Origin: Acidimicrobiales bacterium
GTDB lineage: Bacteria > Actinomycetota > Acidimicrobiia > Acidimicrobiales > RAAP-2
Reading direction: 5' to 3'
Length of the DNA: 45,946 bases
Assembly (NCBI GenBank): GCA_025449805.1
Contig: JANWIR010000035.1
Location: 1-45,946, forward strand
Part shown: positions 18,208 to 20,104 of the stretch, in pieces
Numbering within the stretch: the first letter of the stretch is position 1
Layout of the letters: the number at the start of each line of letters is the position of its first letter
Position numbers and translations under genes: made by a program
The notes under the pieces: generated by a model
The model's input: the letters and a program-made list of their open reading frames with translations, nothing else
What the model was told of the DNA's origin: nothing
The model's database searches: none

Positions 18208-18279
18208 AAAGGGTCCTTAGTCCCTAGTGCGGGGCGATCACCGTCGGCCAGAATCGTCACAGACCCCAGGGAGGGATAC

Positions 18280-18465
18280 GTGATGCACTGGTTCAACACC
18301 GTAGGCGCCTTGATAAACCTCGACCATCCGGGTCACTTCTTGCACTGGCACTTCATCGAGGTCAGCGTCGCCAACGCCGTGGTGATGATCGTGATGGTGG
18401 CGACCTTCGTCGTGGCGCTCCTCGCCCCCTTCCCCGGCCGCCGTAGCCGTAAGGAGAACCGATGA
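18280..18465 (+). CDS. Small His-rich single-pass membrane protein upstream of cytochrome b
   Basis: MMHWFNTVGALINLDHPGHFLHWHFIEVSVANAVVMIVMVATFVVALLAPFPGRRSRKENR; preceded by GGGAGG; overlaps the next start by 4 nt. Confidence 0.75.
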   Translation: MMHWFNTVGALINLDHPGHFLHWHFIEVSVANAVVMIVMVATFVVALLAPFPGRRSRKENR

Positions 18466-19088
18466 CCACCGAGATCGATCGACAGTGGACGACGCGACTG
18501 CGCCGCCGCGCCGAGGGCAAGCTCCCCCCGGAAAAACTCCTCCCCGACACCCAACCCTCGTACGTGTCGTCGTGGATCTACGTCTTTGGCGTCACCACGA
18601 TGGCCGCGCTCTGTATGGTCATCGCGACGGGTTGCGTGCTGGCGATCTTTGGCCCCCAGTGGTGGCACACGTCGAGCGTGGGGCACTTCGTCAACTCCCT
18701 GCACCTTTGGGCCGTGGAAATCTTCTTTTTCGCGATGGTCATTCACCTCTGGGGCAAGTTCTTCATGGCCTCGTGGCGCGGGGGCCGCACCCTCACCTGG
18801 ATGACCGGCGTCGTGACCTTTCTCGCGTCAATTGCGGCGGGTTTCACCGGTTACGCCAGTCAGAGCAACTTCGACTCGCAGTGGATCACGACCCAAGCCA
18901 AGGACGGTATTAACGCCAGTGGGGCCGGCTCGTTTTTCAACGTGTTGAACCTGGGCCAAATGCTGATGTGGCACATCGTGCTCTTGCCGCTCGTCGCGGT
19001 ACTGCTCACCGTGCTGCACGTACTCATGGTGCGCGTCAAGGGTGTCGTGCCGCCCTTCAGTGATGAAACGACGGAGGTGGCGCGATGA
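18462..19088 (+). CDS. Cytochrome b N-terminal-domain protein (split, b6-like)
   Basis: Heme ligands readable: LHLWAVEIFFFAMVIHLWGKF (H-X13-H) and MWHIVLLPLVAVLLTVLHVLMV (H-X14-H). Confidence 0.88.
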   Translation: MTTEIDRQWTTRLRRRAEGKLPPEKLLPDTQPSYVSSWIYVFGVTTMAALCMVIATGCVLAIFGPQWWHTSSVGHFVNSLHLWAVEIFFFAMVIHLWGKFFMASWRGGRTLTWMTGVVTFLASIAAGFTGYASQSNFDSQWITTQAKDGINASGAGSFFNVLNLGQMLMWHIVLLPLVAVLLTVLHVLMVRVKGVVPPFSDETTEVAR

Positions 19089-20026
19089 CCAAGGCCTTTC
19101 GCCCCGACGTTGACGCGCCCGAATGGAAGGGCGGTTACGCCCCCTACGACATTCTCAAAGAAGGCACCATCGCCCTCGTGGTCGTGGCGTTACTGACAAT
19201 TGCGCTCGCGTTGATTTTCAGTTCGCCCGACGAGCACGCCGTCACCATCAAATCGTGGTCCAACGCGACCCCGGTCGACTTTGCCCAGACGGCCTTGAGT
19301 GAACTCAACGGCACCTCGGGCACCGCACAGTACGGCGCGCCCTACAACACCGCGAGTGAGGGTCAAAAGCTTGGCCCACTCGCGCTGGCCAAGTGGGCGG
19401 GCGCGCGTATTCCCGTCAACACGGTGCGCGACTTCGTGATTGACCCCCTTAGGGCCCTCCCCGATCAGCCCCCCCTCACGCAGGGACTCGCGACGTGGCG
19501 TAGTGCCTCCGACGCCACGCGTACGAACTGGGTCGCCCACTACACCAAGGCCGCGAGTCAGATGACCTACGCCAACGGTCAGGTGGTCGTCTCGACCACC
19601 AACGCCGGTCCCGTGCCGCTCTTCATCAACGACCTGACGATGATGGCGCGCAGCGGCGCGCTCGACCAGGCGCTGGTCACCCAACACGGGTTCTACACGA
19701 CCGATTACACGAAACCGTTGCTCTTTCTCTCCGACGGCTCGTACCTCAAGAACCTGGCGCAAAAGGATCATTTGCTCGGCACCCAGTGGGGCATGATGAA
19801 CGAGACGGGCAGCTATCCCGGTCAGGCGTGGCTGTGGCTCTACACCTTTTGGTACCAGGTGACGCCCTTTTCCACCAGTGCCAACGCGGACGTGCAGGTC
19901 TGGGGACTCATGATGTTGCTCTCGGTGATCTTGCTCTTCGTGCCCTTTATTCCGGGCCTGCGATCCATTCCGCGCAAGTCCCGCGTGTACCGACTCATCT
20001 GGCGAGAGCACTACCGAAATCTCTAG
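19085..20026 (+). CDS. Atypical cytochrome b C-terminal-like subunit with large extracytoplasmic insertion
   Basis: Starts PYDILKEGTIALVVVALLTIALALIFSSPDE (resembles start of cyt b C-terminal half), about 190 aa hydrophilic region, then VWGLMMLLSVILLFVPFIPGLRSIPRKSRVYRLIWREHY. No PEWY motif. Start overlaps previous stop. Confidence 0.6.
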   Translation: MTKAFRPDVDAPEWKGGYAPYDILKEGTIALVVVALLTIALALIFSSPDEHAVTIKSWSNATPVDFAQTALSELNGTSGTAQYGAPYNTASEGQKLGPLALAKWAGARIPVNTVRDFVIDPLRALPDQPPLTQGLATWRSASDATRTNWVAHYTKAASQMTYANGQVVVSTTNAGPVPLFINDLTMMARSGALDQALVTQHGFYTTDYTKPLLFLSDGSYLKNLAQKDHLLGTQWGMMNETGSYPGQAWLWLYTFWYQVTPFSTSANADVQVWGLMMLLSVILLFVPFIPGLRSIPRKSRVYRLIWREHYRNL

Positions 20027-20031
20027 TTACG

Positions 20032-20104
20032 TGGAGACGATGGGTCTCGAACCCACGACCTCAGGCTTGCAAAGCCCGCGCTCTACCAACTGAGCTACGT
20101 CCCC
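20032..20104 (-). tRNA. tRNA-Ala(TGC)
   Basis: Reverse complement GGGGACGTAGCTCAGTTGGTAGAGCGCGGGCTTTGCAAGCCTGAGGTCGTGGGTTCGAGACCCATCGTCTCCA; anticodon loop TTTGCAA. Confidence 0.95.

Follow-up and report, generated by a model that had tools for sequence, protein, structure and literature searches.

A conserved gene trio of Acidimicrobiia and other actinobacteria, predicted to form a cytochrome b-derived complex without a Rieske protein and probably under DosR-type control

The closest described relatives of the locus studied here are the cytochromes b of bc complexes, in which the cd region, canonically GYLLPWDQ..W, has the position of the outer-face quinol site and of the Rieske-docking side. 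The bc complexes of relatives of our source organism have the canonical cd motif and a PEWY/PDWY-type Qo motif in the form PDWY or PWYF. Two Acidimicrobiia families without the gene module described below (f2 and f4) illustrate an intact split bc complex in this class, with a split b6f-like operon, detected with PF00032, that comes with a Rieske protein, a diheme cytochrome c, GYLLPWDQ and PWYF. A split b6f-like bc operon of unusual gene content was seen in module-negative Acidimicrobiia and G485 (L184, L186-L189), where cytochrome b, a PetD-like protein, a Rieske protein and a diheme cytochrome c are accompanied by a two-cluster ferredoxin-like protein and a NuoA-resembling protein. The other described system that bears on the locus is the DosR/DevR regulon, the textbook dormancy response of actinobacteria; how the quinone pool is balanced in that state is debated. 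The M. tuberculosis DosR consensus oligonucleotide reads TTGGGGACTAAAGTCCCTAA (PMC5999986), predicted Streptomyces OsdR sites include AGGGACCTTCGGCCCC, and the OsdR regulon includes Usp and pyruvate phosphate dikinase (PMC5069765). The heme ligand of the sensor kinase DosS is His149 (PMC4082495).

The window, that is, the whole 45,946-nt stretch of DNA that was analysed, comes from a 1.36 Mb Acidimicrobiales MAG that is 76% complete. The initial annotation had placed a non-canonical split cytochrome b module at 18280-20026, coordinates that are correct, and the stretch consists of three overlapping ORFs on the + strand. The module is flanked upstream by ctaA, from which it is separated by a gap of 72 nt, with ctaB, a TlpA-like thioredoxin gene and ctaG nearby. 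A tRNA-Ala(TGC) gene (20031-20104, - strand) stands directly after the module stop codon and is followed by ctaG, also on the - strand. The features discussed below are:

18211-18224, no strand (palindrome): DosR/DevR/OsdR-type box GGGTCCTTAGTCCC, in the gap between ctaA and the module, 55 nt before the first start codon
18280 (GTG) or 18283 (ATG) to 18465, + strand: small single-TM subunit of 60-61 aa, from a codon-usage gene call
18462-19088, + strand: cytochrome b N-terminal half, 208 aa, a predicted four-helix diheme b (PF13631, PF00033, hhalign)
18702-18704, + strand: predicted heme ligand His81, invariant
18744-18746, + strand: predicted heme ligand His95, invariant
18849-18896, + strand: altered cd region GYASQSNFDSQWITTQ, family-wide, replacing canonical GYLLPWDQ..W
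18972-18974, + strand: predicted heme ligand His171, invariant
19017-19019, + strand: predicted heme ligand His186, invariant
19085-20026, + strand: partner subunit, 313 aa, with a TM helix, an extracytoplasmic domain of ~198 aa, a W-rich amphipathic segment and a second TM helix
19220-19813, + strand: extracytoplasmic domain of the partner, a well-predicted fold that matches no solved structure
19802-19858, + strand: E240-Q258 segment of the partner, with invariant E240 and then PGQ.WLWLY..WYQ, from a 21-row alignment

The trio is present in several actinobacterial classes. A scan of 85,462 species genomes returned 211 relatives, nearly all labelled Acidimicrobiia or actinobacteria, 80 of which were kept; in profile searches the partner was found in 32 of 296 genomes of its own class and in 19 of 148 genomes of a second one, and two further classes have it in single genomes. 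The order small TM gene, cytochrome half, partner is maintained across classes. The small TM protein reaches the cut-off of no Pfam or NCBIfam family, and its homologues occur at 79 of the first 84 loci and in other classes too. Its gene is fused to the remaining module genes in some genomes, the cytochrome half and the partner are fused in Acidithrix ferrooxidans, where the fused gene encodes 535 aa, and its relatives, and in several genomes all three subunits make up one protein of 613-636 aa. Because gene order is conserved and such fusions exist, the three proteins are best understood as parts of a single complex, and we infer that they would assemble in equal stoichiometry. In G095, whose class has the module in 1 of 36 genomes, there are two diverged copies (L098:3383-4952 and L099:1378-2951) in which the small TM gene was not detected, and which look like horizontal acquisitions.

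Homology of the 208-aa protein to cytochrome b is supported both by Pfam (PF13631, E=5e-14; PF00033, E=3e-8) and by hhalign against canonical split cytochrome b (E=1.4e-15). At the same time it scores far below the curated cut-offs of the described families: 26.8 bits against a cut-off of 500 for QcrB_actin (NF050120), 43 bits against 325 for the cytochrome b6 model, and 48.5 bits against 290 for ExtP (NF040969), the last being the best NCBIfam match (E=9e-13). Both bis-His pairs that had been noticed in the sequence (H81-X13-H95 and H171-X14-H186) are invariant in 21 aligned relatives, and the four histidines show at least 97% conservation among 92 relatives. Inner-face residues such as R191 are retained as well. 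The cd region, which had been flagged as atypical, is indeed so: it reads GYxSQxNFDSQWI throughout the family, the GYxLPWxQ motif is absent, and since the change is family-specific GYASQSNFDSQWITTQ does not stem from an error in sequencing. A more divergent version of the module (L162:7542-9385 and L163:1951-3794) has FGLLARGDWESQFVAMHSSD instead of GYxSQxNFDSQW and another small TM gene after the partner; both of its genomes carry several other cytochrome b genes.

No Pfam or NCBIfam model matches the 313-aa partner above its cut-off. PEWY, whose presence had been named beforehand as speaking against a non-canonical module, is missing from it and from all aligned partners family-wide. It lacks cysteine, and there is almost no cysteine in partners across the family. 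The earlier description of two clear TM segments separated by roughly 190 hydrophilic residues was right as to the segments (aa 21-51 and 266-297) and slightly short as to the stretch between them, which has ~215 aa, ~198 of them in a separate domain. Its suggestion that the partner begins like a cytochrome b C-terminal half has weak profile support and for the first TM helix alone: compared by itself with canonical C-terminal halves the partner gave an hhalign probability of 1.4%, a negative result, and in a concatenated profile the cytochrome b match reaches just through that helix and not into the rest. There are 36 invariant positions in the partners of 21 relatives. Nine of them (E240, P245, G246, W249, L250, W251, Y253, Y257 and Q258, in 21 rows) lie in the E240-Q258 segment, which stands where canonical cytochrome b would have PEWY and the ef helix. 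For the extracytoplasmic domain alone, with 55 aligned sequences, AlphaFold2 gave a mean pLDDT of 86.2 and a pTM of 0.83, and a comparison with the PDB found no match among solved structures (best E=2.9). The natural Acidithrix fusion of cytochrome half and partner was modelled with a mean pLDDT of 80.6 and a pTM of 0.79. In a whole-chain Foldseek search the matches listed were all cytochrome b chains (best E 4e-6), with global TM-scores of 0.31-0.38 by query length, so low that they support just the general fold.

The search for Rieske and QcrC genes elsewhere in the genome, which had been proposed as a check, found a separate canonical set: contig C38 has a standard actinobacterial QcrC-QcrA-QcrB with PDWY. 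Because this QcrCAB is on another contig, and because QcrB coexists with the module, the module is not the bc1 complex of the genome. The coexistence is general: of the 53 genomes with the module that were searched, nearly all encode QcrB_actin at another place (PF00032 misses actinobacterial QcrB, and NF050120 was therefore used as the marker). Cytochrome b normally dimerises, and the module could be an accessory or regulatory paralogue that joins the bcc-aa3 supercomplex at low oxygen, for example as a heterodimer with QcrB, with little catalysis of its own. This is the best of the alternatives, if still an unlikely one. It would fit the coexistence with QcrB_actin and the position of the module in Acidimicrobiaceae beside the oxidase biogenesis genes ctaA, ctaB, tlpA and ctaG. 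However, the module is also present in genomes that have other bc complexes or no detected QcrB_actin (G485, G088, G095, G310 and G366), and the strongly conserved polar residues at its outer-face site suggest a chemistry of its own.

The region upstream of the module points to regulation. The box GGGTCCTTAGTCCC is the sole exact match to GGGNCYWWRGNCCC in the 1.36 Mb genome, and agrees with 12 of 14 positions of GGGACTTTAGTCCC, the core of the DosR consensus oligonucleotide (PMC5999986). Such boxes were first noticed by eye in upstream regions, and their enrichment was then scored with the inspected loci left out. A DosR-type score of at least 9 was reached by 58% of 85 uninspected module upstreams against 6% of 488 other intergenic upstreams, with a p value (1e-20) that is too optimistic because the loci are related; 40 permuted palindromes, used as a control, gave means of 7% at module upstreams and 7% at the others. 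In a reduced set, to which most families contribute from one to a few loci, a score of at least 10 was reached at 11 of 32 loci, compared with 1.0% of random 200-mers; these 11 span about ten families and two classes, and the other 21 are below 10. No FNR, CRP, Rex or Fur sites were found upstream of the module. A reading of the palindrome as the ctaA terminator was rejected, the box being present at loci where ctaA is not adjacent (L096, L100, L109, L148 and L152). One-mismatch boxes are not enriched in the source genome, with 29 sites where the reversed control has 46, so that a wider regulon there is hypothetical.

A matching two-component system is encoded elsewhere in the source genome (L229), where the overlapping genes of a GAF histidine kinase and a NarL-type regulator are grouped with a PPOX gene. 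The best PDB match of the kinase is the heme GAF domain (GAF-A) of M. tuberculosis DosT (E=5e-39), followed by DevS, and the histidine that aligns with DosS His149 is retained. The regulator best matches DevR (3c3w, E=4e-63) and has an identical EKTVKNYVS recognition helix, a segment that, by our reading, holds the core DNA-contact residues K179, K182 and N183 of DevR (PMC5999986). In other genomes the regulator is close to the module: at 0.8 kb and divergent in G388, of another class (L147), together with the kinase, a nitroreductase, PPOX and several boxes; at 1.5 kb in G701; at ~5 kb in G662 and in G703, where GGGACTTTAGTCCC is present in perfect form; and at 2.7 kb in Acidithrix, where Usp and PPOX genes have boxes 76 and 49 nt upstream. 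In a further class (L097) the module neighbours PPOX, Usp and pyruvate phosphate dikinase genes. Altogether, co-localisation with DosR-type regulon genes was seen at L147, L231, L232, L230, L075 and L097 and not in the window; in Acidimicrobiaceae, including the source genome, the module is beside ctaA and not part of a DosRS-type cluster. Many lineages have neither box nor regulon genes close to the module, and a DevR-like regulator is equally present in module-negative relatives. A conserved membrane protein of ~200 aa (MRRKTFD...), with DosR-type boxes upstream and no Pfam match, was noticed near the module in three families (L147:14439-15044, L231:9773-10360, L232:8641-9240) and is possibly a further regulon member.

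Taken as a whole these observations make DosR-type control of the module probable. The redox complex could also be real and the palindrome serve a different regulator, a reading that we hold to be improbable; the box is missing at many loci and NarL-family regulators are common, but the motif equals the DosR consensus core, exactly so just upstream of the module at L232 (PMC5999986), and resembles the OsdR site AGGGACCTTCGGCCCC (PMC5069765), and a DevR-like regulator with an identical recognition helix is present in the genome and beside the module elsewhere.

The module could instead help to build cytochrome oxidase, as the electron donor for copper insertion or for the synthesis of heme A, in keeping with ctaA being adjacent at 57 of 120 loci and with ctaB, the TlpA-like thioredoxin gene and ctaG being near in the window. 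We give this little credence, as such linkage was not seen in other families and classes, where the small TM gene and often the box travel with the module instead. No neighbouring gene accompanies it across classes, and the association with ctaA and oxidase biogenesis genes is limited to Acidimicrobiaceae.

As had been noted from the sequence, the module has no Rieske or cytochrome c gene next to it, nor was a complete bc operon seen around it in relatives. Among ~109 loci no linked Rieske was found, with the exception of one DoxD-Rieske protein; the other match is a bc1 locus itself. The exception, found in one genome, is a DoxD fused to a Rieske domain (L147:6469-7698; Pfam E=8e-15 and 5e-12) at ~2-3 kb from the module. 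Nor was a linked cytochrome c evident, most CxxCH matches being at the TlpA position and the match at L096 being a thioredoxin-domain protein. The only other Rieske-domain protein found in the source genome is a VanA-type oxygenase. The least credible alternative is a working Rieske/cytochrome b quinol oxidase that uses the QcrA and QcrC of the other locus and in which E240 takes the role of the PEWY glutamate; E240 and its W-rich segment do stand at the PEWY/ef helix position. Against it speak the shortening and rewriting of the cd region, the docking place of the Rieske head, the insertion of a large domain on that face, and the lack of a linked Rieske that travels with the module.

The initial proposal of an alternative quinone or membrane redox complex, distinct from a standard bc1 or b6f, is thus supported, with quinone use and redox activity suggested by the retained heme ligands and inner-face residues. 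As judged from sequence, the trio encodes a genuine complex that is conserved, derives from cytochrome b and lacks a Rieske protein. The reading that we favour, with a probability of roughly 55%, is a diheme cytochrome b complex without a Rieske protein, regulated by low O2, NO or CO, that links the quinone pool with a rebuilt outer-face site. The diheme cytochrome b half, the partner and the small single-TM subunit would form one membrane complex, in which the partner would supply helix E, an outer-face cap domain and one further helix. Compared with the cytochrome b from which it derives, the trio no longer has the canonical Qo motifs or the Rieske/cytochrome c branch. Electrons would cross the membrane via the two b hemes, between the retained inner-face quinone site and a domain-capped outer-face pocket. 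The pocket would be made of SQxNFDSQWIxxQxKDxxN from the cytochrome half (invariant residues Q134, N136, D138, Q140, W141, K147 and D148) and E240-PGQxWLWLY from the partner (invariant residues E240, W249, W251, Y253 and Y257), capped by the new domain. Because no further cofactor ligands are evident in the partner, electrons would enter or leave at heme bL, and their partner on the outer face could be a soluble carrier, a small molecule or a second quinone.

The heme-GAF kinase would sense O2, NO or CO and act through the DosR/DevR-type regulator; given this type of control and sensor, the complex would be produced under oxygen shortage or with respiration poisoned. With such control, we prefer a redox valve that would serve the menaquinone pool at low oxygen, alongside the bcc-aa3 chain. 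Heme occupancy, quinone binding, induction by hypoxia, the direction of electron flow and the identity of the outer-face partner are inferences in this picture. The trio may be an overlooked low-oxygen respiratory module. That it represents an unrecognised class of Rieske-less cytochrome b, with its own outer-face site, a new fold and a DosR-controlled route to the quinone pool in several actinobacterial classes, is a more tentative proposal, to which we give somewhat less than an even chance. If that proposal holds, the complex would be an alternative way into or out of the quinone pool under low oxygen or when respiration is blocked by NO or CO. A conserved redox complex in the dormancy regulon outside mycobacteria, for example in the non-pathogenic Acidithrix ferrooxidans, would give a testable answer to how the pool is balanced. 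Such a complex would, moreover, be an example of a cytochrome b rebuilt to do without both the Rieske protein and the canonical Qo motif, a point of interest for the evolution of the Q-cycle core.

In the literature on Rieske-less and split cytochrome b in these taxa that was covered, most subscription journals being outside its scope, this family is not described. Cytochrome b6 and other split cytochromes b share with the module a four-helix N-terminal half with both bis-His pairs, the split genes, the GY of the cd region and the conserved R106/R109 and R191 positions. Unlike them, the module has no PEWY, LPW, Rieske or cytochrome c, its cd region is shortened, and its partner consists of two TM segments and a large new domain; unlike cytochrome b6f, it has no cysteine where covalent heme cn would be expected. 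QcrB of the actinobacterial bcc-aa3 supercomplex belongs to the same cytochrome b superfamily and is found in the same genomes but differs from the module in being a single PDWY-bearing chain whose operon also encodes QcrC and QcrA. ExtP, a b-type cytochrome of selenite/tellurite reduction (NF040969), is likewise a b-type cytochrome half outside bc1, although no selenite/tellurite reduction operon was recognised near the module. No publication that we found lists a cytochrome b complex among the members of the DosR or OsdR regulons, and the word 'cytochrome' is absent from the main text of the OsdR paper (PMC5069765). The likeness to the DosR/DevR regulon of mycobacteria and the OsdR regulon of Streptomyces extends from the type of box, the DosS/DosT-like heme-GAF kinase and the DevR-like regulator to the Usp, nitroreductase, PPOX and PPDK genes that lie near the module in relatives.
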